From assembly GCA_032358255.1 (NCBI GenBank), contig JAULBX010026241.1, positions 1 to 50,813 of the forward strand: 50,813 bases of DNA, in the 5' to 3' direction. Position numbers and translations under genes: made by a program. Origin of the DNA: Heterotrichella gracilis. Taxonomy: Eukaryota > Sar > Xanthophyceae > Tribonematales > Xanthonemataceae. Of the stretch, positions 1 through 50,813 are shown piece by piece. Under the pieces are notes generated by a model. It was not told where the DNA came from. It made no database searches and saw only the letters and a list, made by a program, of their open reading frames with translations. The number at the start of each line of letters is the position of its first letter. The stretch's first letter is position 1.

Positions 1-3000
1 GGAAGCCATGCTGATGCGATCCATGCCATGGCGTGCAGGGCTGGCATGGTTGTGCATCGGTCGGTGAGCAACCAGGGTGCGCGAGCGGGGGTGCATTGGG
101 CTGCAGGTGTTTTCAATGTTTATTTATGTTGTATGAAGACGGAAATTTTGAAAATTTTATGCATGCATGCGGTGCCATGCCACGCCAAGGACAGATTTGC
201 CGTGTGCGTGCAAGGGGACCTACTTGGTGCCTTCCCCAGTATGTGCACTGGTATGAGGCGGTGTGGGGGGCTGAGCGTCACCTCCACCTGCTCCACCACC
301 CCCTGCTCCAGCACGCGGATCTTGGCGGCCTCGCCTGCAGGGTGGGGTGGGGTGGGGATCAGAAATAGTCCCCATGGTTTAGGTTTTAGGGTTGATGATC
401 TGTGGATCTGGGCGGTGCTGGTGGGCGGGTGGGCGGGGATAAGAAAGGGGATTTGCCAACAGACCATGTGTACCGTTAAATTGCTGAACCCTACATGTGA
501 AACCAAACCCTACAGGTGCCACCAAACCCTACAAATACCACCAAACCCTGCACCCACCCAAGAGCGTGTGTCCAACCAAACATGAAACCTTACAAGTAGG
601 GTTGAGCATCGGATCCCTTGGAAACGCTCACTTGGCGGGCAAAACCCAACACAGTGGAGAAACGAGGATGGCCCCCAACTGGTAGACTTGTAGTGGTTCT
701 GAGTGTTAGGTTTGGTCAACATGCATGGTGTGGGGATGGGGGTTGGGGTTGGGGACCAAGGATTCGATATTGACAGGATTTGAGAAAGTTGAGCCAAATC
801 GGAGACAGGCTTCTAGACAGACAGCAGGGGGCAAATACCCCTGCACCCCAAGTAGGGTTTCTGCGACACCAGGTAGCTGAACCCTAACCTAGGATGATCT
901 CCCCACACCCACCTGTATACTTTTGCGACACCAGGTAGCTGAACCCGATCCGCTCGCCCGACCGAAACGGGATGGTCCCATCATTGGCAATGTCCACCCC
1001 ATCAAAGCTCATCAGGATGTCCCCAGAGTGCAGCAGCGCGGCAGCGGGCGCTGTGGGCTCCACCCTCCGCACCAGCACACCTTTCTGGCCTGGTGCCATG
1101 CCCAGCGCCTGGCGCAGGGCGGGGCTCTCCAGCTTCTGCCACTCCACGCCCAGCGCAGGGAAGCCTGTGGGTCATATGGTTTAGGGTTTTTGTCAAAAGG
1201 GGGCAGAATCACACGGTTGTTGCAAAAGGGTCTAGGGAAGCTTGTATGCGGGGCGTAGAATTTGGGGATGTGTTGCATGCACCCTACATATTGTCTCCTC
1301 TGGTGCTGAAGACTGCTGCCTGGGATTTTGCCTGTTCTTGATGACATGAAAAAGGCTGTTCAGGCCCGCCCCTGCACATGTATATTATCCTTCTACTCAG
1401 ACAGCCGACCTCTACATGCGCGGCATGCACACACGTCATCCACAACACCACCCACCACCACTCAGCACCCACCTGTGTACCGCCCGTTCCGCTCGTAGTC
1501 TGAAATGAAGTGATTGATGACCGGCGGGGGGATGATGTAGCTGATGTTCTCGGCATCCTCAACGCCGCGCAGGGACTGGAAGGCGATGCCCACGCACTCA
1601 CCCTGCATACGGTTTAGGGTTTAGGGTTTGCTTTTCAGGGTTTAAAAGTACGGATAGGTACGGATCGGTAATGTGTTGGCCAGCGCGCGTCTGTCTAGGG
1701 ACGGCTATCCAAATGCACACAGGCACGCACAGACAGGCATAAAACAGGGTCACACACATATCTTGGCACATCCACATAGCCCGGACCTGGTCATTAGATG
1801 CCGGCGCTAATATGACCATTGACCCTACACCTAGCCAGCACTCCGTCATTGCAGCCGACATTATCATGCACCTTAAAACCCCAAACCCTACATCCTACAC
1901 CATGCCCGCACCCGGTCATTGAACGCCGGCCCACCGCTGTTCCCGCTGTTAATTGCGGCATCCACCTGGATGCCCAGCAGCTCCGCGGTGCCGTGCACAT
2001 ATGGGGTGACCTCAATGCGGGACACCACGCCACTGGTCACTGACATGGTGTCGCCTCCTATGGGGAACCTGCAGAGGATGACAGTGGGGGTTTAGGGTTT
2101 AGGAAGAATGTGGGGAGAGGGTGGTGTCGATTGGGGTGTGGTGGGTGTGGTGGTGGTGGCAGTCGCCTCAATGCGCGACACCACTCCGGTGGTCACCGAC
2201 ATGGTGTCGCCACCAATAGGGAACCTGGGGGGAAAGGAAGCAGTGGAGGTTTAGGGTTCTGCTTTAGGGAATTTGCAGGGGAGGGGGGGGGAGTAGTGGT
2301 GGTGGTGGTGGTGGTGACTAGGAAGGTGGGGGCAGTGATGGTGGGGATACAGTGGTGGTGGTGTGGTTGGGATGGTGGGATAGTCATGACTGCAGACCTG
2401 ATGCCTGAGTCTTGGCAGGCTGCCGAACTTCAGCACACCCTACACCCTGATTAGGGTTGATACACCACGAACCTGAACCCTAGGGTGCTCACCCGATGAC
2501 TGTGACCGAGTCCTGTAGCCTGGGCAGGCTGCCAAACCTGACCTGCTGCAAATCCTCCCAGAAGGCCTCATCCTCAACAGTCAGCATGGCTGCAGCAGGG
2601 CAAGGATAGGGTTCAGTGGTTTGTGCTAGAGTTAAGTGGTTCATGAAAGAGTATTTCCACCGTCAGCATGACTGCAGCAGGGCAAGGAAAGGGGTTAGTG
2701 GTTTGTCCTAGGGTTCATGGTTCATACTAGGGTTCTTAACCCGTCAGCATGGCTGCAGTAGCAAGAGCAGTAAGAGACTAGCGGTGAGGTCCATCGGCTC
2801 GGGCTAGGCTTTGGCACGTCAGGGTTGGGCATGTCAACAGGTTCCTGCTGCAAGGCTACAGGCCGACAACGCACGCATACAGCATGCGGCACGCCAACTG
2901 CTTGTGGGCATGTGAGGCCATATGCTCATCGTGCTAGTGACTGGCGCACTTGGCCCCATGGCTGTGCGTATACCCGGGTGGGGTCTGTTGCCCAACCTCC

Positions 3001-4836
3001 CAATACCCCACCGCTCATATACCAACCGCCCAAGTCGAACTCTGTACCCATCGCCAAGCACACCCTGCGTCCCCCCCAGGCACCTCCCCGCCCCTCCAAA
3101 CCCCACCACACCTCACCTATGTCGCACTCTGTCCCCACCGCCAGCACCGCCGCTAGGTACTTGGTGTCAGACCCTCGCCGCTTCACTTTCACCTAAGGGA
3201 GTGCGTTGGATGGGGGCAACACGTCAGGGCAAACGCCAATGCGCGTTAAGTATGCGTGTCCACAGATCATACGAACAGACTATGATGCACAAATGCAGTG
3301 CTTCAAACGAGGCCTCCCTAAAATGCAGGATGAGAATTTACGTGTAATGTGCTCTTCCTTATTCTTGATCACACCTGCGTGTGGTAGTCCACGCAGTGAG
3401 CGTTGGTCAGTATGCGGCGCCCCGATATGACAAATCCAGAGCCCGTTGACTGGAACTGGCGCTTCTTCTGCCAGGGCAGGCTGAAGTTGGGCTCGCTGTG
3501 CACGCAGAACACCTGGGAAAGGGGATCGTGATGAACTAATTCCTTTTGATTTTGCAGACCCACCAAGGGAGCCCTAGGGTTTGGCGAGGGGTCTTTTTTT
3601 CACATTGTAAGGGACACAGCAAGATAGTGTGCATGGCATCGCCCGATGAGGTCAGTACAATGGCAACTGTTTCTGGTCTTTGCTGTACACTGTGAAAATT
3701 GAGCTCGCAGAGCACTGCTATGGCGGGTCGACCTGCCTGATAAAGGACATACTTCCCAACTACCCCTAAAACTACTTATCCCAAACCATCGCTTGCACCC
3801 ACCTTGACCACCGCGTCCATGAGCAAATTGTTGTCCCTGGCTCGCTGCGCATCCTCGTCCATGTATCCCGGGGATGCGGGCATATCATCGGCATAATAAT
3901 CCTCGGAGGTGCCGGGGAAGCCGGCGGCAGGGCCTGCGCCAGGGCCTGCATCTGGGGGTGGTAGCAAGAAATATTAAGTATAGGATGAAATCAAAATTAA
4001 CCTCGAATGTGCAGCGGGCATGGATGATATCGTGCTGGCCAAATGCCGGCTTTGTACTTTATGTTGTGGACTTCCATTGCTTTATATTTAATGCATAGTA
4101 GTCCTTGAAGAAGCCCGGGGAAGGCGGCGGCGGGGGCTGCGCAAGCAGCCAGGTTCTGGTATGGGCAGGGGGCTAGTGGGGGCGGTGTTGAGGGGAGGTT
4201 ATCTGGTTCAGGTTGGTTCTGAGCCGCAGGCAGAGCAACAGCTCGGGCAGTGCAACGGGCAGTGCACAGGCACCAGGGGGTCCTATGGGACATACCTTGC
4301 ACCCGGCTGCGGCGCTTCCTGGCGCCAGCCTCTGGCGCCTCCACCTCCTGGTGTGGCCGCCTGCGGGAGGAGGCCCTAGGTGCTGCGTCCTCTGCGGCTT
4401 TGGACTTGGTGGCGGGCGCGGGATCGGCCTGAAATACCATTGGCAGCAAGGGCATTGGTGGCGAATGCGAGCTGGTCGATACAGGTGCTGATGGCTTGAC
4501 AGATCCCTTTGGCCAAGCGCCAGAATGTCCAAGGAACTAGCCCCATCAACGCTATCAGGGGTGTTAATATATAAACCAGAAATTCCTGGTTTATATATTA
4601 ACACGCCTGACGCTATTGGCCAAGGCAGAGCCTCCCCCATAGTGTGCACCCTTGTGGGGGTTTCAGGCAGTCCAGGGGTGTCCAGGTGCATATGCCTATA
4701 TCGAGGTGAACCACTGCAGTGACCTAATACACCGCGTCAGGTCAGGTGCGGAGCATAAACACCGTTTGACGTGTGCCTGTGAAGAAGCTCATACCTCCGA
4801 TTTCGCCCCAGCCTTGGCGCTACGCTTCTTTGGCAT
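1..4836 (-). CDS. DEG9: DEG9-type HtrA/Deg serine protease (partial, 3' end outside window)
   Basis: ATP-independent serine protease of the Deg/HtrA family; the plant DEG9 branch is nuclear/nucleolar. Exons I can join in phase: 4836-4795, 4428-4296, 3951-3803, 3512-3375, 3192-3117, 2589-2493, 2068-1912, 1602-1473, 1164-913, 334-224 (428 aa here). The triad is visible: His147 in TNAHCVD, Asp178 in GTECDI, Ser256 in NSGNSGGP. The [18 protein letters not shown] block and the first PDZ stretch ([20 protein letters not shown]) match the plant DEG9 family rather than bacterial-like plastid Degs. The N-terminus is Lys/Arg-rich ([12 protein letters not shown]; later RKRRSRVQ), suiting nuclear targeting. 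The start is the ATG at 4836, opening a 14-codon exon with a clean GTATGA donor. The second PDZ region lies beyond the left edge. Family assignment is firm; intron edges are inferred. Confidence 0.9.
2166..2226 (-). repeat. 61-bp copy of the start of the catalytic-Ser exon of the Deg gene
   Basis: This stretch repeats 2010-2070, the first part of the exon coding [19 protein letters not shown], 156 bp upstream in the gene's direction. It keeps the AG acceptor context and an open frame ([19 protein letters not shown]) but then runs into intron sequence, and lacks the catalytic Ser part. It is a partial exon duplication, not an extra exon. Confidence 0.85.
2578..2762 (-). repeat. Three copies of an intron-exon junction in the Deg gene
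   Basis: The 3' splice site and first codons of the exon at 2589-2493 occur three times on the minus strand, at about 2578-2630, 2661-2711 and 2741-2762. Each has the CTGCAG acceptor (CTGCAGTCATGC in the second) followed by ATGCTGAC. Only the copy nearest the exon continues into coding sequence. Confidence 0.8.
4556..4609. mobile_element. 54-bp foldback mini-element with 7-bp target duplication (copy A)
   Basis: Almost the whole element is an inverted repeat: a 19-bp perfect arm GTGTTAATATATAAACCAG, a 6-base loop, then its complement, with outer ends CAGG...CCTG. It is flanked by the direct repeat ACGCTAT (4549-4555 and 4610-4616). It sits in the first intron of the Deg gene. The arms match the element at 12570-12632. 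The ends (CAGGG) resemble hAT termini, but the flanking duplication is 7, not 8, bp. Confidence 0.8.
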
Positions 4837-6019: not shown

Positions 6020-7831
6020 ATGCAGGAAACCGCACTGGTAGTCCGATCTGTGGTGAAGGACAGGGGCGGCTGTGTGCTGCCGAAGGCGTTGGAGGTAAGA
6101 AACCCTAAAACCTAATCTCGCTTTGATATGGTGAGGGACAGGGGGGTGCGTGCTGCCAAGGGCGTTGGAGGTGAGAAACCCTATACATACACAGCGTACC
6201 AGAAATCGCTGCAGCCCATTTGATACTTTCTGCGTCGTTTCCCCTTTGCACCCCTCCTGATACTTTCTTGTCCGTCCACTGTTATTCAGAGCAAGCAAAG
6301 TATCCCCTCCCACGCAGCTCCCCCCCGAGCAGCGCTCCTGGCGCACCACCACCCACCTGGAGGCGCTGCGCGTGCGGGAGGAGCTCAATCAGGCAGTGGA
6401 GGGGCTGCCCCATGAGCCGACCCTGGCACCAGGCCACACGCGTGTTTGCGCTGGTGGTGCGATGGAGGCACGCGCAGTACGGCTGGGAAACCATGTCTGG
6501 CGGGGAGGCTGTCGCACAGGTGTGTAAGGTAGTAGGGTTTTAGGGCTTCAGGATAGGGTGTAGGGTTTGTGGCTGGGAAATCATCTCTTGCGGGGAGGCT
6601 GTCGCACAGGTGCGTGGCAGTGCAGTAGGATTTTAGGGCGTAGGGTTTTAGGTTCAGGGTTTAGGGTCTGCCGCTGGTGCATGGGCCACCAGAAAGGGGT
6701 GCGCTAGCTTGACCTGCAGAGGGTGAAATTATGGTTTGGGGCCCGCATCCTCCAGGGCCGCAATCTTAGAAGTCGCCACTTGCACCTGCTTCGTGCTGCA
6801 GACCCTAAACCCTAAACCCTTAACCCTAGACATCATCTGCATGGGGCTGCGGCCCCTGGGGAGGGCCCAGGGAAACCTCCCACCCCCCTCACATTTTGCT
6901 GCACATGTCTCAGGTGTTTGGCCCCCCCTCACATTTCTGCCGCACACATCTACCCGTTTTGATACAGGTGTTTCGCCTGGCCTACGGGGAGCAGGCGCGT
7001 GCCGAGAGGCGAGGCAGTGCGGAGCTGAGCCATGTGGAAGCTGCACAGGAAGCTGTGCGGGTGGCGGGCACTGGGCTGGTGGCGGGGATGGTGTCTCATT
7101 ACAACCCGCCCGACCCAACTTCAGTAGATGGTATGTGCGGCTGTGCAGTCATCACACTAGTCATCACACTAGTAATTGCCACTGATCCAACTTTGGTAGA
7201 TGGTACGTGCGGTTGCACAAAGTCATTACACTAGTGATTATCCCTCTAGTTAGTACCCCTAGTCATTACCACCAGTGACTATACTGGTTATTGCATTAGC
7301 CCCATTTCTGACAGCACCGGTGCCCAGGTGCCCTGGGGCACATGTCACAGCAATTGCGGAGGGGTACTGAGTGCCACCTACTGCACTTGGAGTTGGATGG
7401 GTTGCAGCATTACAGCCTTGTTACACTCACAGCTATCCCATGCTGCACAATTGCTCTAGCGACCATTGCCATATATACAGTCGCTGTGATGGGTACCTTT
7501 GGTCTTACCTTGCTTGCATTGTGGGATGTGTTCATATACCTTAATGAGGAGCGCCCACAATTCTTGCTGAAGAACATTGTGGAAAATAGCACCATATGCG
7601 GATTTTGGTACTAATACTGTTATTGGCCTCAATTGTGTTGCCCATTGCTTGTGCAGCGGCATGGGAGCCATGGGAGTGGGGTTTTTGGCTAGGATTTAGG
7701 GTTAAGGGTCTATCAAATCCATGCCAATTGCTGGTGCAGGGACATGGGAGGCATGGGAGGACGTTGAAGGCCTGTCAAGCGAGACTCCGCTGCCCGCCGT
7801 GGAGCTATATGGCGTCACATGGGATCAGTAG
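6020..7831 (+). CDS. Truncated relative of the front half of the downstream MYND gene
   Basis: Unrecognised family. Exons: 6020-6094 (MQETALVVRSVVKDRGGCVL...), then 6433-6519 (ATRVFALVVRWRHAQYGW...), 6968-7130 and 7740-7831, phases consistent, giving about 138 aa. A further exon 6318-6371 (LPPEQRSW...) with a 61-base intron would give 156 aa. The last two exons are related to 12318-13001: GTGLVAGM...TSVDG versus CGGLVVGA...ASLDG, and PLPAVELYGVTWDQ versus TLPAVELYGVAWDQ. Here the codon after DQ is TAG where the other copy has the GT of a splice donor, so this copy ends and the TPR-like and MYND parts are missing. It may be a short functional paralogue or a broken duplicate. The exon 2 boundary is uncertain. 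Confidence 0.5.
6129..6185 (+). repeat. Copy of exon 1 end plus 5' splice site of the 6020 gene
   Basis: Repeats about 6048-6106 (the end of the first exon, its donor and the first intron bases) with scattered changes. Both copies carry GTTGGAG followed by a good donor (GTAAGA versus GTGAGA) and then AACCCTA. Confidence 0.8.
6571..6640 (+). repeat. Copy of exon 2 end plus 5' splice site of the 6020 gene
   Basis: Repeats 6481-6546: the coding end GGCTGGGAAA...GTCGCACAG, the donor, and a TTTTAGGG run. The copy lies about 90 bp downstream inside the next intron and keeps a usable donor (GTGCGT). Confidence 0.85.
7183..7231 (+). repeat. Copy of exon 3 end plus 5' splice site of the 6020 gene
   Basis: Repeats about 7111-7163: coding end for DPTSVDG, donor GTAYGTGCGG, and the following ACTAGT-containing intron bases. 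Both donors look intact. Confidence 0.8.
7643..7682 (+). repeat. Copy of the 3' splice site and start of exon 4 of the 6020 gene
   Basis: This stretch (CCATTGCTTGTGCAG then CATGGGAGCCATGGGAG) repeats the genuine acceptor and exon start at 7724-7764 (TTGCTGGTGCAG then ACATGGGAGGCATGGGAG), about 80 bp upstream of it. Confidence 0.75.
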
Positions 7832-12317: not shown

Positions 12318-15300
12318 ATGAGGTTCAGAAGGAAGCTGGGGAGCATTGGTGCGGGTTGTGGCGGTCTGGTGGTGGGTGCAACCCTATCCTTGTACATTGA
12401 GCCTGAACACGCTGTAGCTTCTCTAGACGGTATGTGATCTTATTCGTGGGTACCGTAGTTATTACCGTATTATACCAGTACTTTTGCAACTGTGTGCCCT
12501 GGGTGGGGTGCATTAGCCACATTACACCATGGACTGCTAGCCTGCACAGTACCTGTGCATAGGCTGCATCAGGGGTGTTGATATATAAACCAGGAACAAG
12601 ACTTGTTCCTGGTTTATATGTTAACACCCCTGGCTGCATACATGGAGCCTTGGGAGCCTTCCTAGGAGATGGAAACTCCTCCCAACAACATGGCCTTGGG
12701 TTGTCCTGCGTACACCCTCAAACATCCAGGGGTGGGATTACTATAAACCAGGAACAAGTCTTGTTTATTGCATAGCCACCCTGGTCCTAGCCTCCCACAT
12801 GTGCCGACGGTTGCTGTAAGACTTAGAGCCAGGGTTAAGGTTGGGGTTATCCTTGGACCGTCTCTATGTGGCCTTCTAATAACCATGTCAAGTGTGTCAC
12901 TCTATTGCAGACGCCAATAGAGCATGGCAGGGCATCAAAGACCCTGTTTCGAGAAGACTACGCTGCCTGCTGTTGAGCTGTACGGCGTCGCATGGGACCA
13001 GGTGGGGGGCTGGGGAAGCCCTACTAGGGTACTGGTCCCCCTTGGATGCCTCACAACCCTACTAGGGTCTTGGTGGCCCCGTGGACGTATTGCACCCTAC
13101 TAGGATCTTGGTACCCTACAGATCTCACAACCCTCCACCTCGACGCGCCCCACTCCACCCCCCCCACTCACCCACCACGACAGGTGCGGTGGGTGTGTGC
13201 GGACACGCTGGCCACCCCATTGCCGCCCAGCTCATGCTGGCTGCCGCACGTATCCTGGTTGAGATCCAGCCCGACAACTGCTTCTGCTGGTTCATGCTGG
13301 CCAAGGCGCAGCAGTTCCTGGGCATGGCCACACGTAGTAGTACAGCCGTCAATGGCAGAGGTGCGTGGGCGAAACCCTTCTCCCTAAACCTTAAACCCTA
13401 AACCCTAAAGCTGGGTGTGCGTGGAGGCCATGGGCACAGGGCAGAGGTGCGCACGGGCTTGCAGGCAGCACGGGGTGTAGGGTGTAGGAAAACCCTTAGC
13501 TACAGAAACCCTAGCTAGGGAGGGTTCAGGGTTCGTGTCACCAAGTTGCTATGCGTTGGGATGTATCTTAGTCCACCTGGGACCTTAGGAGGGCAGCAGT
13601 GTGTCACCAATGTAGCATTGTAGAATACGTTAGGGTTAAGGGTGGGGATAGTCTTGTCACCGAGTGTGGCACGGGATGCATGCTGTGTGATATCAGACGT
13701 ATTTAACAGACAAGCTGTTCCAGAAGATGGTTCCAGAAAATGTGACCTTTCAAGAAATCATCGAGATGTAAATATGTCGTCCCTTTAAATTTCCCAGGCG
13801 ATGGCAGAAATGTCGAGGCACACAACTTGTAGGTAAGAAATCGTTGTGTAGTAGTCCAAAGCAGGGTTCTTGCACCTGCTGTTGGCGATCAACCTTGAAG
13901 CAAATGACGGCAGAATACCCCCGTGGTTTCTGTCACTGCCTGGATGCAAGAAACCCTCACCAGGGATTCCCAATGCCTGCAGAGCTCATGCCCAGCGTGC
14001 GGCGCGGCATAGCTGTGTGTGAAACCCCTGGGCGTTTGGATGAGATCTACCTGTGCAAGTGCGTGTGGGAGGTGGCACTGGGCATTGTCAACGGGAATGG
14101 CCACGGCCAAAGACCGGATTGCTTTGTGGATGTTGAGGTGCCCTCCAAACCCTAGACCCTAGACCCTGGGTAAAACCCTTGACCTCGGGGAAGGGGTGTT
14201 GAGGTGGTCTTTGAACCCTGGGCCCAGGGGAAGGAGTGCCAGGTGGTGATTTTGGTCCTGGGGAAAGAGGTGGCCGTGGGGGGTTTGGCGGGTGCAAGGA
14301 GGGGTGGTGTGGCGGGGTGGTTGGAGTGAGGTTTGGGGTTGTAGTGGCGTCAGCCTAGGGCAGTGGTCCGAGGGACGTTGCGTTTAGGGTTTAGGGTTTT
14401 AGGTGCCAGTGCTAATGCAGCAAATGCAAGGCTAGCTGCTTACTTGGCTGGATTGCTTGGATGCATTATAGTCATATGGGATGTGACTTACAAATGTACA
14501 GTGCAAACCCTGTGCAAGGGTTGCTTGCCGTTGGCTAACCATCAAGGAAGTCCTCCGAGGCGCCGTGAACCCTTGGGTAGGGTTTGGGTCGGGGGTGGAC
14601 CTGAGGGTACTGTTGCACTTTTGAAAGCAGTCTGTCTAAGGATATATGTGGCAACAGGTTTGTTCCCTACATATTCAAGACAGACAGGTCTGTAGGGGGC
14701 GCTGGCTGCCACAATAGGGTGTCCCAATCTGGGACATGTGAATTGAGTTTGGGGATGTCGGGGATGATAGCAAGCAGGGCTCAGGTCCTATTATTCTTAT
14801 TCTGATTCTTGCTTATTGAGAGGTGATGGGGAAGACAACCGGTAGACTGACTGGTAGCCAGAGTACCCATGCACTGATCATGTATCTCTCCTCTGGTGCA
14901 GGAGCTGCATGCCCTGAAACCCTAGGGTTAGACAACCCAAACCCTACTCCCTTGTGCAGGAGCTGCGTGCCCTGAAACCCTAGGGTTAAACTACCCAAAC
15001 CCTACTCCCTGGTGCAGGAGCTGCGTGCCATGATGCGCAAGGGGGATGAGAGCCTGCGCACGCTCAAGAAACTGGGGAATGTGGTGGAGCGACACGAGTG
15101 TGCTCGGCAGTGGGCTGTAGCGGAGCGCCAGCTGGCGGTAGTGGAGGCGCATGCACACATACTCATGCGGCCGGGCTGGCGGAGGTGAGTTGCAAGGACT
15201 GGGTAGGGTTCTGCTAGGGTTTGCAAGGGGGTGTAGCGCCCATGGTTGGCCACATGTCAGAGTACCCCAGCAAAGTCCCGACACACCCAGTGGCAAAGGG

Positions 15301-16016: not shown

Positions 16017-16706
16017 GGCTGGGCGCGTACCCACGTGCTGCAAATGGGTGGGATGAGTGTCCTTAAGCTTGGCCATGCTTAGCGCTGCCGGCAGACCTTG
16101 TGCAGTGCATTTTTTATACATTTACAAGCAACCAATATTTTTTATTACCTTTTTTTGTTTATGTGTGTGTTTGTGTGTGTCATGTGTGTAGATTTTGTGT
16201 TACAACTTTGAAGTTCAGAATCTGCTGGACACCTCAGGTGGCTACCCACGGGGCCTGGCTGTGCATCCAGGACCACCTTCAAGCTCCTAAAAGGACATTG
16301 GAATGTTCATTGTCAAGCCATATATACAGTGGGTGCTATATTATAGCGTCCAGTGTAGCCACTGTAGCAGGGTTTATGTTGAAGTATTTGAATGAGACTG
16401 GTAACCAAGTTCCAATCATGAATAAAAAACCGCCATGCAGTGCCTGTGGTGACCAGATGGTAAATATGGTATCAGCAACAGCGCGCCACACAAGCATTCA
16501 GAATCTGTAGGCTCGCTGGCAACGACTGCGTAGCCTAATCAGGACATGACAGGTAACGCACGATCTGCTACAAAATAGAGAAGAAAAGACCCCGTTGGTT
16601 ATGTAGGTCAAGTCATGGCACTTGAACAGGCACCGCACCATGCACAGCGAGCAAACCAACCCATGTGCCTTGCAAAAAAAGGCCCCAATCAACGGTTACT
16701 AAATGC

Positions 16707-16895
16707 TTATCTGTCTTTGCCCGGCTGGTTAGGCTTGCCCTTCCCCACCCCCCCCTTGGCCGCAAAGACCTTGCCACCAAAACCCTTGCCTCCTGGCGAC
16801 TTCCCGCCAAAACCCTTGCCCTCAGCACCATCGTTCAACCGGGCGGGCTTGGTGTCCATGTCTGCTGAAGAGGAAGCGTACACCAACCCACCCAA
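16707..16895 (-). repeat. Decayed second copy of the last EBP2 exon, downstream of the stop
   Basis: The frame here reads SSSADMDTKPARLNDGAEGK and then Gly/Lys-Phe-Gly repeats ending KGKPNQPGKDR, closely following the authentic C-terminus (SSADMDSFKPARFNDGAKGK ... KGKPNRPGKARR). It lies just past the EBP2 stop codon, so it is a tandem copy of the 3' part of the last exon, now in the 3' flank or UTR. Confidence 0.85.
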
Positions 16896-16908
16896 TTGGC
16901 CCTACAAA

Positions 16909-37968: not shown

Positions 37969-40900
37969 ATGGACGATCGCAAGCGAGACTCTGGCAAAGT
38001 CACTTTTGGGCGGCACAGCTTTGGCCCGATGCAGAAGGCTCCGATGCTGGGTATGGCCGGCGATGGGGCCAACCCCATAGTCAGCATCTCAGAGGGGCTC
38101 AAGGACGCCAGGAAGAGTGCCGACAACCTCATTCGCACTGCAACCAACAACACGCATATCAAGAGGATAACCAGTGGGCTGGACAGCTGGGAGAACCAGC
38201 TTTCTTCGCTCAAGGAGAAGGCTCAAGCCAGCCTGGGGAGCATTGGCACAGACGACCGGAACGTATCTGCTGAGGACTATGTCCTGCTGCGGAACCTGGG
38301 CAGATCGGGCTCCAAGCCCATCTCACGGATGCGCAAGTCAGCCTCGGAGAGCAACTTCAACCACATGCTTAAGGTCAGGCCCGATGACAGCGCCAGCGAG
38401 TCTGTGCCAGAGGGCAAGGAGTGGGATATGTTCGCAGCACTCAACCCAGTCAAGCAGCACGAAGCCCACTACTCCCGTGGGATGCTGCGTGTCCCCACGG
38501 CGCCCAACCTAGCGGACCAGGTACGCCCTTTGTTTCAAAGCTTTGCCAAAAGGCAACCCATCTGTACATGCAATGGGTTCAGTTGTATGCATTGTGGATA
38601 ACTGTGTAACATTCCTGACATATAGCTGGTTGCCACCAGGGTGTATGGCAAAGTCTTGTGCGTGTTGCCTGCCTCCAAAGCCTGAGCCCAGTCAGTCTAG
38701 ATACCCAATTGATACTAACAGAGTCCACCACTGCCCAGGCCCGTGTGCTGGCAGCGCTTGAGCCCGGCAAGAGCCTGGGGGAGATGGCGCAGCACGTGGT
38801 GCAGGTCACGCAGCAGACCAAGGACAACATCCACAGCAACATGCAGCAGCTCAGCACCTTTTTGCAGTCCAAGGTGCAGGAGGTGCAGCCGCGCATCCAG
38901 CAGGGCGTGCAGCAGAGCGTGGCGCAGCGCAACAAGGTGGTCAGGGACCTGCGGGAAAAGCTGACGGCACTGTCGCTACAGGTGAGGCCAGGGCCTGACC
39001 CAGCGGGACCAGCCAGCTGGAAATCAAAGCGCAAAATATCAACAGGCGTTGCCCACGGTAGCAGAAGAGAAAGCTTTGGCGTGGATTTATCTGTGTTGCT
39101 AGTAGCTGAATTTAAAGCAACAGGGTTTTGGGTGCATCCCAACTGGGGGGCGCTTGTAAACATAGAGCCTGCTTCTAAAAACGCAACTATGTCCCTGCAG
39201 GCCAGGGAGACGGGCAGTGCCAGCCTGGGATCCCCACAGTCAGGCGACGGCGACTCCAGCTTCTCCACCGCGCCCTGGTCGGTGCTGCCGGGGTACCTGC
39301 GTGCGCGCGAGCTTGCTGCGATTGAGGAGGCCGTGAAGGAGCTGGAGGAGGAGGACGAGGAGGAGGAGGCGATGATGGCAAGCACCTCAGCGGGGGGGCT
39401 CCCAGTGGGGCCCATGCAGGTGCGCGCAGTAGTGGTGGCCTGTGGCGTTGCTTGGTATGCACGGCAGAACACTGAGCAAAACATGGCAGTGGTTTTGAGC
39501 ACAATAGCAGCTACTGCATGACTTGCAGTACGTACCATCGTGCACGCAAGCAGGGTTGCATGCAGGGGGTATCTAGCCCCAGGCAAGTGCACACTGCACA
39601 CAACACAGGCTTGCAACCTCTACCGGCGCGCCGCTGACCGCCTCACGATCACCTCTCATACATCCCTCCCACCCTGCAGCTTGAGGCGCAGCGCAGGCGC
39701 GAGGCGCGGCGCAAGAAGCACAGCAGCCTGCGGGAGCCGGGGCGCCAGGTGGCCATCGTCACCACCGCCGCGCTGCCCTGGATGACGGGCACCTCGGTCA
39801 ACCCGCTGCTGCGAGCAGCGTACCTGTCAAAGGACCCCAACCGCAAGGTGAGATTTGTAAACCGTGAACCCTAAACCCAAAAAGCCGCGTACTAACCCAA
39901 GGACCATAATAGCAAGGCAAGGCTTGCAATATGTAACATGTAGTATATATGCACTGGTGCACGGGAACAGCTTGCTGGCTCGCACTGGTGGCAGCTGTCG
40001 GCGCAGATTCTGTTGGTTCCCGCACGCGCCGCAATACTGCTGGGTGTTACGCGTGAAATGACGGATGGGAAGGCACCACGAAACTGCTTATAGTGCAGTA
40101 TGGGGTACTCGCGCCCTCGAGCCTGCTCCACCTTGCCAAATCTCACCTCCACAACCTTCCTCGCCGAAACCCTGAGTGCGGCACTCTTCCCCAGGTCACG
40201 CCGCTCGTAAACCCTAAACCCTACACCCTATCCCTCAGGTTACGCTGCTCATCCCCTGGCTGGCCAAGTCCGACCAGCCCAAGGTGTTCCCCAAGGACAT
40301 GGTGTTTGAGACGCCTGCCGAACAGGAGAAGTACGTACGGGACTGGGTCAAGCGCCGCACAGGGTTCGACTCCACATTCAAGGTCACGTTCTACCCGGGG
40401 CGCTACGCGCCCGAGAAGTGCAGCATCCTGCCCGTGGGCGACATCACCGCCTACATCCCGGAGCACGAGGTGGGTTGATCACGGATCGTAAGGGTGGCGG
40501 CCCAGGTGCATTGGCGGTGGCAACCTGCCTGTCCACCCGGTATGCAGCATGGCATTGCTTTTACACTGAATGAAGCATTAATAAGCATGGCCTGTATATT
40601 GAAAGAAGTTGCAAGATTACCAAGCCTCAGCCCTAGTGCTGGGTGTGTGCCGCTAGGTACTGGAGGTCCATACCCTTGCCAGGCTTTTCACCCCCCATCC
40701 CCATGCGCCCCCCCTTCTGAGCCGCACTAACCCTCCCCCCAAACCCTCTCAGGCTGACGTGGCTGTGCTCGAGGAGCCCGAGCACCTCAACTGGTACCAC
40801 CACGGGCGGCGCTGGACCGACAAGTTCAACCACGTGGTGGGCGTGGTGCACACCAACTACCTGGACTACGCGCGGCGCGAGGAGGGCGGGGACATGAAGG

Positions 40901-43715
40901 AGGTGTTTTTGCGCCGCATCAACCAGTGGATGTGCCGCATCTACTGCCACAAGGTGGGTGGAGTGGAATATGAAGGAGGTTTTGTTCAAGTGCATGAACC
41001 AGTGGATGTGCCGCATCTACTGTTACAAGGTGGGTGGGGGATGGGGGGTAGGGCGGGGTGGGTGGGATAGGAATCGGGGGTACCTCAGGCGCATCAACCA
41101 GTAGATGTGCTGCATCTACTGCCGTAAGGTGGGTGGGCAGCTTGGGGTGGGATGTGAAGGAGGAGTTCTTCATGCACAAGATGGGTGACTAGTTGGGGAG
41201 GGTGCATGTGGAAAATGGAGTCGGGTTGGGGGGGGCGCATCTGCGGATGCTGGCAGGTTGGCTGGCCGTGAGCTCATGGTGACTGACGAGGTGCTGTGAG
41301 GTCATGAAATTTTGTTCATGCTTCATGTAGTAAAATCAACCCTTAATCTCAAAATCGATCAAGAAAGTCTCAAACAACTTGCAGGTGATCAAGCTGTCTG
41401 ACGCTGTCCAGCCCCTCCCGCGCGAGACCACCCAGTTTGTGCACGGCGTGCCCCAGACCTTCCTGGATGTGGGCGACAAGAAGGGGAGCCACACAGCAGG
41501 TAGGGCCAAAGGTGTAGTAAATTCAAGGCTCACATACCCCTTGGTAGGGTCTGCACCTGGCCACTGTGCAATATGGTATGCCCTTGGTGGCGCATGCATG
41601 GCACCGCTTGCACCATCCTGCACTGCATAGCATGAGGCAAGTGGGGACCTACCATTGCTGGGTACATATCCATAAATCCCACTTAAATGCATGTGGAGAC
41701 ATGGGAAATGATGCCCCTACTTCTGTCACTGCACGAGTGCACGTGGAATCCCGCCCCGGGGTTGCAGTGCAACCCGGGTTGCATGAGTGCACTGGGATGC
41801 CCATTGCTCCCCTGCATCCCACGAGGCAGTGGAACCCCACCCGGGGGCGCCCCTCCAAACCACTTGGAGGCCGGCCCCCCCGCCCTTGTTCACCCCCGCA
41901 CCCCCTCGCAGTGACACCTGTCACACCTGTCTCACCGGCAGATGATGGCAGCGCGCGCTTCTCCAAGGGGGCCTACTTCATGGGCAAGGCGGTGTGGGCC
42001 AAGGGCTACTCGGAGCTGCTTGACCTGATGGCGCAGCACACGCGGGCCCAAGGGGAGGAGGTGCACGTGGACTGCTATGGAAACGGGGAGGACCTGGAGG
42101 AGGTGCGTGCAGAAAAAATCCAGCAATTGAGAAACGCTTGCATGGGCATGTTGGCATTGCGCTTTTGCTGGGTTGATTGCACCGAACAATGGTGTACAGC
42201 TTGTCAATGCAGAGCCGGGGTGGTGCATCGCGGGCAGTTGCGCACACATCCAGCTGTACTGGGACGAGCACCCGCATAATCATGACGGGTGTGCACATTA
42301 CCACTGTGGTACAACGCCCCCTACCCCAAGCCCCACCCCACTTACCCACCATAAACTCGCCCCATGCAGATCAAGGGTGACGCCAACCGGCGCCGATTGG
42401 CCGCCACCTTCCACGGGGGCAAGGACCACCTGGACCCATCAATGCACGAGTACAAGGTAAGGGCCAATCTAAACCCTAAAACCTAAATCCTTCATGGTAG
42501 GGCTGTGCACACTGACCCCAGTCAAACTCTAGTCGTGAACTTGAGTAAAAGACGAGGCAGGGCTGCGCCTGCAGGTCCACCAAGGATTGTAGCAAGTTGC
42601 GGCAAGAGGAGGGATCCACAGCGTGTAATTTGGATGGTCCTGAAAGGATAGGAAATGGTTATGAAGCAATAGGAAATGGACACAGGCAAAGTTGAGAAGT
42701 TACAGAATAACCATGAAAGTGGTGTGCGATCGTAGTGGTGCATGCGGCTGACCCCTGCCCTGTGCCCTCTCCAGGTGTTCATCAACCCCAGCACCAGTGA
42801 CGTTGTGGCCACCACCACCGCCGAGGCGCTGGCCATGGGCAAGTGGGTCATCTGCGCGGAGCACCCCTCAAACACATTCTTCTCGCAGTTCAAGAACTGC
42901 CTGGTGTACAAGACGCCCGAGGAGTTCTCACAGCACCTACAGTGAGTGGCAGGGGATTGGGAATATATTGGGGGTGCCTGGGTGCATTGTTGTAGGGTTT
43001 TTAGGGTTGACCTGGTGTACAAGACGCTAGAGGAGTTCTCTCAGCACCTCCAGTGAGTGGCAGGCCCTTGCACTTGTCGCTTGGGCCTGGCTGGAAAGCA
43101 CAGGCTTGCTTCCTGCTTACCACCACTTGCCGCCCTCACCCTCTCTCAGCCCTCCGCCAAGGTTCGGGCATCTTGTAAGGAAGGACGAAGATGCTGAAAA
43201 CCGCTTGGCGGTGGTGTGCGTAGGCAGATCTTCTGATAAGTATTCCCATGCCACAGCTCAAACACTCAAACTCCAACCCCCCCGCCCCCAGGTTTGCGCT
43301 GAAGAACGACCCCCACGCCATGGAGGCGGAGGAGAAGCACCGCCTCACCTGGGAGGACGCCACTGAGCGCTTCCTGGACGCTGCCGAGATCAGCCGCGCA
43401 GACCGCCCGGGGCGCGTGGAATCCGCCATGGACAACCTGTTCTGGGTGGCGCACCACGCCCTCTCGGGCCTCGAGCCCGTCAGGGCGGTCAGCGGGGCGG
43501 GGGTGCACACCCGGGACAACCCGCAGCGGGTGGTGGACTACCAGCCCACAGCGCACGTGGGCGGGTTCTTTGATCGGGATCGGAGCCAGCTGGCGCAGCA
43601 GCGGCAGCGGCATGTGCAGCACGCGCAGGGGATGCGGGCGCGGGGGGCCGGCGGCCGGAGGGACGTGCAGTCACACGCGCTGGCGCTGCCCGCTGATGCG
43701 GAGGTCAACAGCTGA
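37969..43715 (+). CDS. DGD1: Digalactosyldiacylglycerol synthase
   Basis: UDP-galactose:MGDG galactosyltransferase making DGDG at the plastid outer envelope (GT4 family). Exons: 37969-38520, 38739-38981, 39201-39419, 39680-39847, 40239-40469, 40753-40953, 41385-41499, 41942-42102, 42370-42456, 42775-42941, 43292-43715; 855 aa, all in phase. The long helical N-terminal extension (about 1-338) corresponds to that of DGD1, which DGD2 lacks. The catalytic part begins [20 protein letters not shown] and continues with [64 protein letters not shown], and the donor-site region [24 protein letters not shown]. The start is the first ATG (MDDRKRDSG). The last 90 residues are an Arg/Gln/His-rich extension. 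Intron junctions of exons 5, 6 and 10 are duplicated. Confidence 0.97.
40188..40250 (+). repeat. Duplicate acceptor of DGD1 exon 5
   Basis: CCCCAGGTCACGCCGCTC at 40192 precedes the real CCCTCAGGTTACGCTGCTC by 45 bp. Both have AG then codons VTPLV/VTLLI. Between them lies CCCTAAACCCTA. Confidence 0.8.
40966..41182 (+). repeat. Two to three copies of DGD1 exon 6 end and its 5' splice site
   Basis: The exon end coding [11 protein letters not shown] plus donor GTGGGTGG (to 40953) is repeated at about 40966-41037 ([11 protein letters not shown], donor intact) and 41085-41140 (INQ, then TAG, then MCCIYCRK, donor intact). A weaker echo of KEEFFMHK lies at 41155-41182. Confidence 0.9.
43005..43066 (+). 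repeat. Copy of DGD1 exon 10 end and its 5' splice site
   Basis: Codes [15 protein letters not shown] against the genuine [15 protein letters not shown], followed by the same GTGAGTGGCAGG donor region. It lies 114 bp downstream in the intron, next to a TTTTAGGG word. Confidence 0.9.
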
Positions 43716-45666: not shown

Positions 45667-48119
45667 ATGCAAACAGCTGGAGCTCTGTCGCATGCAAGCT
45701 ACAGCCGTGGCGTTCCTTGGGTGCCCCACCCACCAGCGAGCACCTCCGCGTCCACGCTGGCACCCTTATCCCCTCGCCGTATCCCGCCCACCCCATGCTG
45801 CTGGCATGCCTCGAGACATCACACGGCAACGCACGGCGCAGCGGTGTTCCGCACACATAGACGACCGCGAGGGCTGCGAGTGGTGACGTCGGTTGCGAGC
45901 TCTGCCGCGGACAACGCGCCTGCCATCCCTGGTTCACGGGAGGAGTCGGTGCGGGATGTCGGTGTTGCACTGCGCCTATGACACACATAAGAGCTTTTGC
46001 TTGGTGCATGCAGACCCTTGAACGGTTCAACCGATTAATATGCAGCAATGCTAGGATATGGGTTTGCTAAACCTCTGCTTCCATGGACCAAGCCAGGCGC
46101 ATCCACTGCGGCGTATGCATGCATTGGGCACATGCATGCATATGTGTTCTAGTAAAGCAATGCATGCAACGCCACCTTTGCTTCCCTCTCGTTGCAGATA
46201 CAGCAGGTGGTGACAGCGCTGACGTCACAGCTGGTGTCAGGGAAGGCTGCCAAAAAGGTTGGGCGCCAGAAAATCCTACACAAAACCCTATCCAGCGGCA
46301 CCTTCGTAATACCCAGCTGGCTTAATCGCACACACCGCCATTTGCTTATTGCTCACAGACCACAATGCCAGGTGTTTTGTTTGTACCATATTGCATACCG
46401 TGTTCTTTATGGTAACCCTTGAGTGTGCAGCATTCGCCCTACCAGCCCAAACCATAGAGGGTTTGCAACAGCAAGTAGTACCCACTGCCTTGTTGCCGTG
46501 CAGGGTTTCAAGGTGGGCAGTGTGAAGAAGCTGGCAGTGGAGGTGCCTGTGGCAGACACCTCGCCTCCTACGGTACGGCCCACCCACCACCACCTATGTA
46601 GGGTTCAGGGTTTAGGTTAACAGCTTGAACGTATCGATGGTTCTTCCCGTGATACGATTGCCGTCACTACATGGGGGCAGAAGCTTTCTGGCCCACAGCA
46701 TGTGATCCATAGGCGTTTAGATCATCATTATGTATTGGTTGACTGCTGATCTGGTCATTGTGGCTGGTACGCTTGTAATAATAATAATATATCTATTGGT
46801 GGGTTATTATGTGTAAAATATAAATATTGGCAGTGTATATGACACTCACTGACACTGATCCATACCGACAATACCCCCCAGGTGGTGGATCTGGTGAAGG
46901 ACATCCTCCAGGGCCTCCCAGGGTCGGAGCTGGGCCCCTGGGCAAACGATATCACCCTGGTATTTGGGGACCCCGCAGCCGCGGAGTGCGCATCAAAAAT
47001 CGGCCTCCCGGGGATCCCCACGGTGCTGACGGTGAATGCCGCACTGCCCAGCCAGCTCAGCGGCCTGCTGCTGGTGGTAGGGGCCAAGTACGAGCAGGTG
47101 GGTGGGGTTTAGGGTTTGGGTTTCAGGGATTTTATCTCGGGACATTGCAGAGCGTCAATTGCGCCATGTCGGTGCACTTCAGCCATGGCATGCGGAGTTG
47201 CGCCTCAAAGCATGTGGGAATTTGCTTTATTTATCTATTGATATAATGATATACACGTTCGTCAAGTCCAAAACCAAGGTGCAGAAAACATGTAACGAAT
47301 TATGTAAACATTTCTTGCTACTCAGTGTGTCACCATATGAGGTATACGTCAGGAAAACTACCCCACATCCTTACCTGTCCTCCCCTGCCTGCCAGGTGGC
47401 GCTCACCCAGGCGCTGCTTGCTGACTGGCGGGGCCGGGCAGCGGTGCTGGTGAATGCAGAGTGGAACCCAGAGGAGCTTCCGGCGGAGTACCGCGCATTT
47501 GCCAAGAGCTTTGAGGTGGTGTACAGCTTTCTGCCCCTGGCCATCCAGGTGCGGAACCCTACAGGTTACCCTAGCTAGGGTACTGGGTTTCGATTGAATT
47601 GGCATGCGTTGAAGGTGCCGAATAGTACAGACTGCCTTCGAGCTTGCACTAGCTAGGTAGTGCAATGTTGCCCTTGCGCCAGACTCAACAAATACCCTAA
47701 CCTGGCACCAGCCAGCACAGAAGTCGTCTACCAACACATGTACATAAATTGCTGCTCAAGATTCACAACGAGAGCTTGCGGATCCATACCTTTGTCAATC
47801 CTTGTTGGCACCTCAACCTCCCATCCTGGCCCCATACATTTCCCCCCTTTACCCCCCCGCCACTCCCCCCCTACCCCAGGGTTTCCTGAGCCAGCAGCAA
47901 GGGGCGGTATTCAAGTGGGTGGTGAAGGGGACGCCCTCCGGCACGCCCTGGCGCATCTACGTGATGGAGGGGGAGGAGTTCAAGTGCGTGGGGAGGCAAA
48001 GCAAGCGGCCGGAGCAGGGGGAAATCGAACTGGCGCTGTACAACGCTGCTGCCGCCAAGAGTCCCCTGGCGGCGGGCGCGCGGTTTCTGAAGAAGATCAC
48101 GACCAAGAAGATGGACTGA
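45667..48119 (+). CDS. Plastid DUF1995-domain protein
   Basis: Exons 45667-45948, 46198-46257, 46504-46572, 46882-47097, 47396-47548 and 47880-48119 join in phase: 339 aa. The first 75 or so residues are Ser/Ala/Arg/His-rich with almost no acids (MQTAGALSHASYSRGVPWVP...), a chloroplast transit peptide type. The DUF1995 pattern follows: AIPGSREESIQQVVTALTSQ, KKLAVEVPVAD, WANDITLVFGDPAAAECASK, AAVLVNAEWNPEELPAEYRA, FEVVYSFLPLAIQGFLSQQQ, GAVFKWVVKGTPSGTPWRIY and FKCVGRQSKRP. Members include LPA3-type assembly factors of photosystem II, but the domain is widespread and the exact role is open. The start is the only ATG giving the transit peptide. Confidence 0.85.
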
Positions 48120-48197
48120 TTGCCAGCTTGGCAGCTTGGCAAGTCCACCTCAGATGCGTGCTGGGGGGGGTGGGATCGCAAGTGCGTGTGGATGCAC

Positions 48198-48260
48198 AGC
48201 AAGGGGAGGAAGCGCTAGCAAGGGGAGGAAGCGCAAGCAAGGGGAGGAAGCGCTAGCAAG
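48198..48260. repeat. 19-bp tandem repeat, about 3.3 copies
   Basis: AGCAAGGGGAGGAAGCGCT starts at 48198, 48217, 48236 and (partly) 48255, 80-140 bp after the DUF1995 stop codon, probably in the 3' UTR. Confidence 0.95.
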
Positions 48261-49171
48261 GCCACCAACAACCATCCAGTCCTCAAGGGTGGCATGGAAG
48301 TCCCGGCAGCTGTTGCAGAGGCGCACTTTCAGCAGATTGCTGGTATTGGCGCAGAGGTCGAGCCAGCATTCCAGCCATAGATGGCAGGGTTGAACCAGGG
48401 TGGTAGGTGCGTTCATGAGGTTGAGTGTTTGGCCAGGCAACTCTTACAGTTGTGTGTGAAGGGGTTATTGCAGCTGGTTTGCCAGAAACAGTCACTGAAA
48501 CCCTTGTGCTGAACTAGCCGTAATATGCCCTTCACAACCCAGTGTTAAGAGTTGGCTTGCCAAGCACTCAGCTCAAAAACGCGCCTACCACCCTGGGCTT
48601 CGACCCTGCCCTTTGAACTTTAGCTCCCACCTTATGAACTGTGTTCAATACACTTCTTTGAAGCACATCCAGTGATTGCAATTCTATCTCATGCTCCACC
48701 CGCACGCAGCAGACTGAAACCCCAGCAGCAGCCAGCTTTGGGAGTGGTCAGTGTGGGAGGACTCCCGCAGTTTAGGGTTTAGGGTGCTTTTTGCACGCCG
48801 GTTGTGCCCAGTGCGGTTCCCTCTGCAATGACTCCAGCGTTGCCCTCAACTCCCCTGAAGAGTTTTAAGTGAAATTCGGCAGCTGCGTCGGTCGATCCCC
48901 GTGTGGGAAGCTGAAAGGGAGGAGGTGTCACACATTTTGGAAAGTCTATGGGATGCAGGCAGACATCAGGCCACCACAGAGAAGGCTTTACGGGCTGCAC
49001 AGAGCTGCACAAAGTAGTACTACGGTGCTACTGGTTGGCCTATGTTGGCACCCACGTTTGAGGGCTGGACTCTCGTACCCACATCTCCATATATATATTG
49101 GGACAGAATATTGGCACTAATTGATGTGTATTTTTGACCCACCTGCCTGATAGGCCTCCAAGTGTATGCAT

Positions 49172-49688
49172 CAGGGTGCAGGTCGACTGGCGACCCCAGG
49201 AGGTCGCCCTGGGTCGATCGGGGTCGCTCGACCTGTCGACCCCGGGACCCCAAAACCAGGGGTCGACTAGGTCGCATTTTTTCCAATGTTTTGGTCAATT
49301 TTCTGTGATTTTGGTTGTCTGAACACTTACTTAGACTGCTACCAACCTAAGCAAGGCTACCAGGAGACGGTGCTGATAGCAAATTGCTCAAAACTAGGTG
49401 TTTTCTTTATTTGATGGGGACATTCGGTTCCCCTGTGGCACCCACGTCCATCAAGGAACATGGATTTTTGCAGCCGGGAACCCGCAAGTGTACCTTCTGG
49501 TGCAAATAAAAAGCCTTGACAAGTCCTTGGCCGTAATAAAGGCTTGAAATGGGTCGCTAAACTGGTTTTAGTCTCTGATTGGGTGTAATTCGGCTGTTCT
49601 ACCTGCGACCTGTCGGCCCCCCGGGTCGACCACCGACTCAAGGGGGGCGACCGTCGACCTCCAAGCGGGGAGGGCGACCTGCACCCTG
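49172..49688. mobile_element. Non-autonomous hAT-like DNA transposon (MITE), 517 bp
   Basis: Terminal inverted repeats begin CAGGGTGCAGGTCG at both ends, and GTATGCAT is present directly on each side (49164-49171, 49689-49696): an 8-bp target duplication, as for hAT elements, whose ends commonly start CAGGG. Both subterminal regions (about 110 and 90 bp) are packed with GGTCGAC/GGTCGC words in both orientations, which in hAT elements are transposase-binding repeats. The middle has no coding capacity, so it would need a transposase supplied elsewhere. The intact duplication suggests recent insertion. Confidence 0.85.
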
Positions 49689-49998
49689 GTATGCATACAG
49701 TACATACCGCTCCAGGAGGCAGCATTCCCGTATGTTGCAGCAAAACCGTTTTGTTTTGCTTGACGCCCTGATACCGGGGTCGACACAGCGGCAGACTCAA
49801 CGCAAACCTGCAGAGACTAACACTCCAGTTGCCCAGTACAATGCATGCATATGGCACCTTTGAACCGCATATTGACCTGTCACCCAGCACCGGTGGTGTT
49901 GACCAGAGCAGCGCCTAGACACTAGCATCACCACACCCAGCCCTTGTACCCAAAAGCGCAGCTCCCACCTCTCCCCCGTCACCAAAACGGTGCCCACC

Positions 49999-50813
49999 AT
50001 GCCAGGCGTCTCGGCGCACCTCTCACGCACGTTACCAGCTCCAGCCCAGTCGCACCACACTCCCTTGGCGAAACCCACCTCGCCCATCCGCGCAATCAGG
50101 CCTTTCGGCTCCCTTTCACACAACTCCCTTCGCTGCACAAAGCCAGGCGTAACCATCCATGCCAGGCAACGACATGGTGTCCTGGTGTCGTGTACCCTGG
50201 CCAAGGTAGCGTCAGCATCAGACGATGGCATCGAGATCCCTGCGAAGGTGCCCAAATACCTGTGGCGAGGTCTCGCGGCCGTGCTGCTGGCCGGCCAAGT
50301 CATGTTGAAGATTGTGACAGGTAATGTAACCGCAACAATGCATGCATATGAGGACAAGCATGCAAATCAAGGGTTGAGCAGGACCTTGCATCAGGAAGTA
50401 CTGCGCTCCAGTAGCATGGCTGGCAAACTGGGTAGCGCAGAAGTGCTGTATGTGGTGACTGGCATATGACAAACCCACCCATCGCCTCACAGCATATGCA
50501 CTACAACTCACCTCATACAGGCTAGCACCTTGCAACCGCACTGGGCGCTGGCTGCAATACCGTTACCACCCACTCCACTCACCACCACACGCATCGTGCA
50601 CCCGGTTTCTGTTTGTGCTTCCACCCCTGTATGCCCGTGTGTAGGGTAATTCGTTACCCTGAACCCTAAACCCTAGCCCCCCTGCTCCAGGCAAGGTCCA
50701 CGTGAAGAACACCCTAGCCCAGCTCAAGTCTGTGGGGCCAGGGTCTCTGGGGGTGGCGCTGCTGACTGCAGGGTTCGTGGGCATGGTGTTCACAATCCAG
50801 GTGGGGGGGTGGG
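49999..50813 (+). CDS. TGD1: TGD1 chloroplast lipid ABC-transporter permease (partial)
   Basis: Inner-envelope permease (MlaE/ABC1 family) of the TGD1-2-3 complex that brings ER-derived lipid into the plastid. Exons 49999-50320 and 50691-50800 lie in the window (144 aa); the rest is beyond the right edge. A Ser/Thr/Arg/His-rich transit peptide (MPGVSAHLSRTLPAPAQSHH...) is followed by the family's conserved start: PKYLWRGLAAVLLAGQVMLK, then GKVHVKNTLAQLKSVGPGSL and GVALLTAGFVGMVFTIQ. The start is the first ATG in frame. The second exon is preceded by CCCTAAACCCTAG and a CTGCTCCAG acceptor. The product supplies precursors for galactolipids, linking it to the nearby DGD1. Confidence 0.92.

Follow-up and report, generated by a model that had tools for sequence, protein, structure and literature searches.

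Why should the introns of a genome carry repeated pieces of the exons that flank them? The question is raised by a 50,813-nucleotide stretch of the Heterotrichella gracilis (Xanthophyceae) genome (bases 1-50813 of contig JAULBX010026241.1, hereafter the window), in most of whose genes a first-pass annotation had noticed about twenty cases where the last or first coding bases of an exon, together with its splice site and some adjoining intron, recur inside that same intron in the same orientation. We find that such local, same-strand copies of exon edges are real and extend beyond the window, and that exon-bearing DNA is overrepresented among them.

The survey covered 0.29 Mb of the 68.5-Mb assembly (903 contigs) and comprised the window, twenty 10-kb stretches at random positions on contigs C2 to C27 of a telomeric-pattern listing rather than across all 903 contigs (the random sample), and 35 kinase loci, which are not random but were chosen from 149 matches for having at least two exon matches in one frame. 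Repeat arrays were counted at 38 bits or more and without overlap; overlapping repeats were merged into the best-scoring one, and serial copies count once. Genes were modelled with a small hidden Markov model, self-trained on Pfam-placed kinase exons (an intron was obtained for 28 of 38 exon pairs at the kinase loci, 25 with a good score) and re-estimated on the window and the random sample. This gene finder recovers full-length MIF, EBP2 and LHCII proteins; at 6.0-7.8 kb of the window it gives no model, so that the four arrays there count as outside genes and hence against the exon bias, and in some arrays it calls the copies exons. A light-harvesting gene elsewhere in the genome matches chlorophyll a-b proteins of solved structures. 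The number of arrays meeting the conditions of each count differs: 60 for splice site and side, 56 for exon-side mismatch, 54 for codon position and indels, and 78 for copy number (63 with gaps of 8 bp or more).

Local same-strand arrays and their exon bias

In a BLAST comparison of the window with itself, 42 direct and 2 inverted pairs were found at spacings of 30-250 bp, which bears out the single orientation claimed earlier; the random sample gave 97 direct pairs against 1 inverted one at 30-400 bp, with at least one direct pair in 16 of the 20 stretches, and second-order Markov shuffles (250 kb) contained no direct pair. At the array threshold the three samples hold 25 (window), 67 (random sample) and 10 (kinase loci) arrays, 102 in total. 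The 25 arrays of the window comprise 16 that link exon to intron, 2 confined to introns, 5 outside modelled genes (four of these at 6.0-7.8 kb), 1 reaching from an exon to past the stop codon and 1 mixed, in line with the original estimate of about twenty exon-edge cases. The copies lie close together (55-229 bp in 99 of the 102 arrays; an ungapped scan sensitive to shorter spacings placed 25 of 123 arrays below 50 bp) and span 38-174 bp (10th to 90th percentile). Direct reading of the DNA in DGD1, MIF and EBP2 confirms that the repeated unit consists of an exon end or start, its splice site and adjoining intron. The one to four further copies described at first sight do occur, with three or more copies in 11 of 78 exon-linked arrays, but two-copy arrays dominate (67 of 78). 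Array spacings show two peaks, at 72-106 bp (44/102) and at about double that distance, 174-202 bp (18/102); the second perhaps reflects the loss of a middle copy.

By gene model, the 102 arrays divide into 68 exon-intron and 10 intron-only ones, 14 that lie outside genes and a remaining 10 that are mixed or confined to exons, so that exon-intron copies exceed intron-internal repeats, the comparison that the first-pass annotation had itself proposed as a test, here in a 0.29-Mb sample rather than the whole genome. When whole arrays were shifted at random in the random sample, 25.5 of 67 were expected to be exon-intron, with a maximum of 35 in 200 trials, whereas 42 were observed; for the window the expectation is 8.5 (at most 15) and the observed count 16. 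Two further models were applied to the 92 arrays of the window and the random sample, as was the count of junction positions given below, the 10 kinase arrays being excluded. Random placement of the copied piece at tolerated positions predicts 10.6 one-junction, 30.7 intron-only and 27.6 intergenic arrays, against 45, 10 and 14 observed. Insertion at a random site in non-coding DNA from a nearby template predicts 0.34 exon-intron arrays per intron-only one, against 5.5 observed, while the intergenic to intron-only ratio of 1.2-1.3 is as expected (1.4). Among arrays with at least 88% identity, 24 are exon-intron and 2 intron-only.

Two effects could inflate this bias. Exon-side identity exceeds intron-side identity (0.876 vs. 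0.809), so exon-linked copies stay recognisable longer, and simulation puts their resulting detection advantage at about 1.6-fold, insufficient for constraint-driven detection to be the full cause. Composition acts in the same direction: the G+C content of noncoding arrays exceeds that of their background (0.591 vs. 0.522 and 0.563 vs. 0.519; exons 0.639), some of them having exon-like composition, yet the factor of about 1.9-fold, a rough estimate of our own obtained by arithmetic from these figures, likewise falls short of the whole. After both corrections the bias persists (p = 2.6e-6). We hold it to be real, with a corrected size that is uncertain, perhaps 2- to 5-fold.

Junctions, telomeric words and the decay of copies

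Among the 68 exon-intron arrays, the exon-bearing copy holds a single junction in 56 and two or more in 6; in 2 it ends no more than 15 bp from a junction, and in the last 4 there is none nearby. A junction is therefore included or adjoining in 64 of 68, compared with 71% under random placement (p = 5e-6), where the remaining 29% of exon-touching pieces carry none. The earlier notion of the junction as the copied unit nevertheless finds no support in the form given, for the position of the junction within the copy is flat (9, 9, 12, 12 and 10 in five bins; 52 arrays). The copies extend a median of 32 bp into the intron. Both ends of introns are involved, with 27 donors and 33 acceptors among the 60 one-junction arrays, and in all 60 the second copy lies to the intron side of the junction and inside that very intron, by the predicted gene models, a placement that follows partly from how source and copy are defined. 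The birth of a whole intron between two copies was not seen among these 60, the second copies lying inside the intron. Eight arrays link an exon to DNA outside genes, and five of them involve no intron: all five carry coding sequence past the 3' end of the modelled gene without a splice site. They include DUF1995, a gene initially listed as free of copies, whose bases 47960-48008 recur at 48157-48206 beyond the stop codon with 78% identity. The flat junction position and the copies past gene ends fit exon-sourced copying with non-coding survival better than splice-site targeting. A reading centred on the junction seems best replaced by one in which local duplications arise from exon-bearing DNA and last where they fall in non-coding sequence.

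The copied splice dinucleotides are intact in 48 of 58 cases, against a neutral expectation of 77% (p = 0.35), which supports neither purging nor retention of copied sites. The copied dinucleotides thus persist for the most part, though no more than neutral decay would leave, and the competing splice sites envisaged at first reading should be common in transcripts. The intron growth that copying had been suggested to account for is modest in what stays detectable: in the window and the random sample the arrays touch 78 of 305 introns, and deleting one unit from each cuts summed intron length by 7.7%.

Telomeric 7-mers (CCCTAAA/TTTAGGG) make up 7.4% of the non-coding bases inside arrays against 1.65% outside. 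They occur in 33 of the 58 exon-intron arrays of the window and the random sample (17.1 expected) and in 6 of 14 outside-gene arrays (2.5 expected); the telomeric runs noticed in many units are therefore enriched and common, but not general. TTAGGG is present in 18 of 76 segments between copies (2.9 expected), and the twelve most enriched 6-mers of these segments are all pieces of the telomere repeat. That telomeric words are the ones most enriched between the copies suggests break repair, and we take them as its mark rather than its cause. The idea that telomeric runs seed the copying fares less well, since they lie within 25 bp of a copy's inner edge in 11 of 63 arrays. Across the introns of the window and of loci L009-L028, telomeric 7-mers favour the CCCTAAA sense orientation (703 vs. 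393 occurrences); the opposite sense word, read as TTTAG followed by GG, looks like an acceptor, and selection may act against it.

The layout of young arrays indicates that the copies were usually apart from the start: in 12 of 14 exon-linked ones, the copy takes up just 17-80% of the spacing. The young inter-copy segments match only themselves in the genome in 13 of 15 cases, the two others giving simple-repeat or weak partial matches; in a larger set, 4 of 76 segments have a distant match in the sequence examined, one of these being a dispersed repeat, and a comparison of segments with each other, telomeric words masked, left 5 rows passing an E value of 0.01. Such unique sequence speaks against a mobile element, and captured filler is disfavoured on the same counts. 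Positions 1975-2176 of locus L026 hold a dispersed repeat, possibly a small mobile element, that has relatives in at least eight other sampled loci. Four tighter arrays of the window contain 2.3-2.5 units according to Tandem Repeats Finder, as expected had the two A copies of an A-B-A array exchanged so as to add a unit.

The decay of the copies is that of non-coding DNA. Across 54 exon-linked arrays, the first, second and third codon positions mismatch at 10.6, 7.9 and 21.3%, and of 17 indels 14 disrupt the reading frame. On the exon side the median mismatch is 13%, and the value falls below 6% in 3 of 56 arrays, which lends little weight to the initial impression of a continuing process; a present-day copying rate is not evident from these ages, and near-identical repeats may have been collapsed in the assembly.

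A proposed origin in error-prone repair, and its rivals

In light of these results we propose, with about even confidence, that short-range same-strand duplication takes place across much of the genome as a by-product of error-prone repair, with exon-bearing DNA favoured. Broken or stalled ends would be repaired so as to leave a local copy, mostly 55-230 bp from its source, either because staggered ends are filled in and then joined or through a same-strand template switch, sometimes with telomeric filler. Exon-bearing DNA would be hit at several times the rate of intron-only or intergenic DNA. Copies landing in coding sequence would be lost, those in an intron or past a stop codon would persist, the original exon and splice site remaining functional, and as a result of this loss and survival nearly every surviving exon copy would carry a splice junction. 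Some arrays would later gain units through misaligned exchange between copies. Of these elements, the data show the locality, the single orientation, the exon bias, the presence of junctions, the telomeric enrichment and the non-coding decay; repair of breaks as the cause, selection as the filter and exchange as a second step are inferred.

Several observations weigh against this proposal. Break repair as such leaves the exon bias without a cause, and the junction excess over random placement runs counter to it. All exon boundaries are predicted. The kinase loci by themselves provide no evidence, as their 10 exon-intron arrays do not exceed what random shifts can yield (mean 6.5, maximum 10). 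The telomeric link is incomplete: 25 of the 58 exon-intron arrays contain no telomeric 7-mer, and the intron-only arrays show no excess (3 of 10, 2.6 expected). Orientation is at odds with simple telomerase extension of a copy end, with 144 telomeric bases in the half and orientation expected from it and 228 in the opposite one. The gaps between young copies do not suit plain tandem duplication, and the uniqueness of the sequence in those gaps is awkward as well, for captured filler would be found elsewhere. Finally, third codon positions show more mismatch than the neutral decay of a copied, constrained exon should produce.

The proposal has to be set against explanations that dispense with any preference for exons or that place the preference elsewhere. 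Short tandem duplication could be uniform along the genome and merely filtered, coding hits being lost and exon copies staying recognisable longer, so that the junction pattern is one of geometry and survival. This is possible, if doubtful: random shifts alone already turn 25.5 of the 67 arrays of the random sample into exon-intron ones, junctions sit at no preferred position in the copy, exon sides are better conserved than intron sides and noncoding arrays share the G+C richness of exons; but the observed 42 lies above all 200 shifts, the bias outlasts the combined corrections for detection and composition, and 24 exon-intron arrays stand against 2 intron-only ones at 88% identity or more. 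Were the process instead aimed at splice sites, for example as repair templated by pre-mRNA near the spliceosome, copying of the junction itself would explain the 64 of 68 junction-bearing or junction-adjoining copies, their single orientation and the hits on donors and acceptors alike. We regard it as unlikely, given that the junction is not centred, that five arrays copy coding sequence past the gene end where there is no splice site, and that the copies run well into the intron, which excludes mature mRNA as the template.

An artefact in which the assembly placed pieces of two haplotypes serially would also favour exons, as these are what two haplotypes would share while their introns differ, and it could draw on the rarity of very young copies (3/56) and on third codon positions differing most. 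It is nonetheless highly improbable in view of the median exon-side mismatch of 13%, the 14 of 17 indels that break the frame, the 7.9% change at second positions, the 11 exon-linked arrays with three or more copies and the direct pairs in 16 of 20 random stretches. A more far-reaching version of events, to which we give a rather low probability, is that repair or replication directed to exons by chromatin, methylation or transcription, with telomere-maintenance enzymes involved, seeded introns and gene ends with copies of exon-edge DNA, and that introns grow by gathering spare splice sites derived from their own edges.

Arrays of the window and known systems

Pfam names a trypsin-like protease with PDZ (Deg-type), zf-MYND, EBP2, MIF, a glycosyltransferase (the DGD1 of the first-pass annotation) and DUF1995 in the window, and an EF-hand protein whose EH match is sub-threshold. 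In the Deg-type gene (minus strand), a 26-bp exon-edge copy lies at 859-946 (boundary about 913, spacing 62, 96% identity), followed by exon-edge copies at 2010-2316 (boundary about 2069, spacing 156, 75%, telomeric 7-mers in the array), 2574-2761 (boundary about 2590, spacing 82, 80%) and 3891-4145 (boundary about 3934, spacing 202, 79%). The four direct-repeat arrays without a gene model, scored intergenic and given no strand, occupy 6051-6183, 6481-6677, 7112-7238 and 7639-7759. At 14888-15033 (plus strand), the acceptor-side exon start of the zf-MYND gene (boundary about 15018) is present in 2.5 units of 58 bp with 92% identity and telomeric runs between them.

EBP2 (minus strand) has a 180-bp duplication of its last coding part at 16687-17087, mixed exon, intron and outside in the gene model (78% identity); an exon end with its donor at 17427-17714 (boundary about 17664, 2.4 units of 114 bp, 95%), the exons being backed by Pfam EBP2; an intron-only array at 18070-18232 (spacing 90, 90%); and an exon-edge copy at 19287-19475 (boundary about 19320, spacing 152, 84%). 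The 21676 gene, on the same strand, carries exon-edge copies at 21962-22274 (boundary about 22221, spacing 189, 78%, with shorter internal copies too) and, weakly, at 22522-22984 (boundary about 22892, spacing 165, 66%). On the plus strand, the acceptor and exon start of MIF, a Pfam match, occur three times at 25654-25911 (boundary about 25874, 2.3 units of about 86-96 bp, telomeric runs), and a copy of an exon end in the following intron, at 26006-26257 (spacing 186, 71%), scores 34.6 bits and stands outside the 102-array counts.

The EH/EF-hand gene (minus strand) has exon-edge copies at 28425-28639 (boundary about 28451, spacing 177, 90%) and 30191-30368 (boundary about 30249, spacing 104, 77%), an intron-only array, partly simple repeat, at 29804-29952 (spacing 95, 78%), and 50-bp exon-edge copies at 30536-30669 (boundary about 30628, 88%) whose 34-bp interval is almost wholly telomeric. 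At 29012-29455 an exon piece is followed by several further copies with telomeric runs between (77%); the gene finder reads them in frame as repeated short exons (DAEAADLARLQG motif), and the array may be a coding repeat as well. In DGD1 (plus strand, Pfam Glycos_transf_1), the exon end with GTGGGTGG and the donor stands in three copies at 40890-41137 (boundary about 40954), and an exon end with its donor at 42900-43064 (boundary about 42942, spacing 111, 93%) has a telomeric run directly before its second copy. The DUF1995 array already described, in a Pfam-matched gene, spans 47960-48206 on the plus strand (spacing 197) with the stop codon at about 48119. The window also contains self-complementary, palindromic stretches at 4555-4610 (56 bp), 12570-12632 (63 bp) and 48383-48610 (about 230 bp).

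Short tandem duplication by end joining is already known, and its close-range, same-strand character is matched here by the 97 direct pairs to 1 inverted. CST and Pol alpha-primase give rise to small tandem duplications by filling in 3' overhangs ahead of end joining (PMC8355091); these share with the present arrays their short, direct, same-strand form. Telomere-maintenance enzymes take part there, and a dependence on CST, Pol alpha-primase and NHEJ is putative here. The arrays differ from that description in that their copies are usually split by unique sequence instead of lying head to tail, often with telomeric words in the interval, and in that exon-bearing DNA is strongly overrepresented. 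Mammalian telomeric repeats inside chromosomes, inserted at breaks, come with a duplicated flank at a minority of loci, 6 of 130 in rodents and 4 of 25 in primates (PMC2246262). Exon bias does not figure in the sections consulted there, and here duplication is the norm while telomeric words may be absent.

In one potato gene, a tandem duplication crossing an intron-exon boundary led to intron gain (PMC4974935; PMC3443670), and as here the segment spans the boundary and splice signals are copied (PMC4974935); that single case yielded a new intron, however, whereas in H. gracilis the copies are added to introns already present, across dozens of genes, and no newly formed intron was identified. 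Genome-wide addition of intron sequence is also known from introners and from break-repair intron gain (PMC9860276), with direct repeats at the insertion sites of some families, but the present copies have no shared element between them, and the target duplications quoted there, of 3-9 bp, are far shorter. The open-licence literature searched, which lacks most subscription papers, yielded no account of exon-edge copies recurring systematically in introns or numbering dozens in a quarter megabase, nor of this density, exon bias and telomere link. If upheld by RNA and by related species, the arrays would constitute a measurable route by which introns lengthen and acquire duplicate splice sites without mobile elements, and exon-biased duplication would become testable in a single genome.

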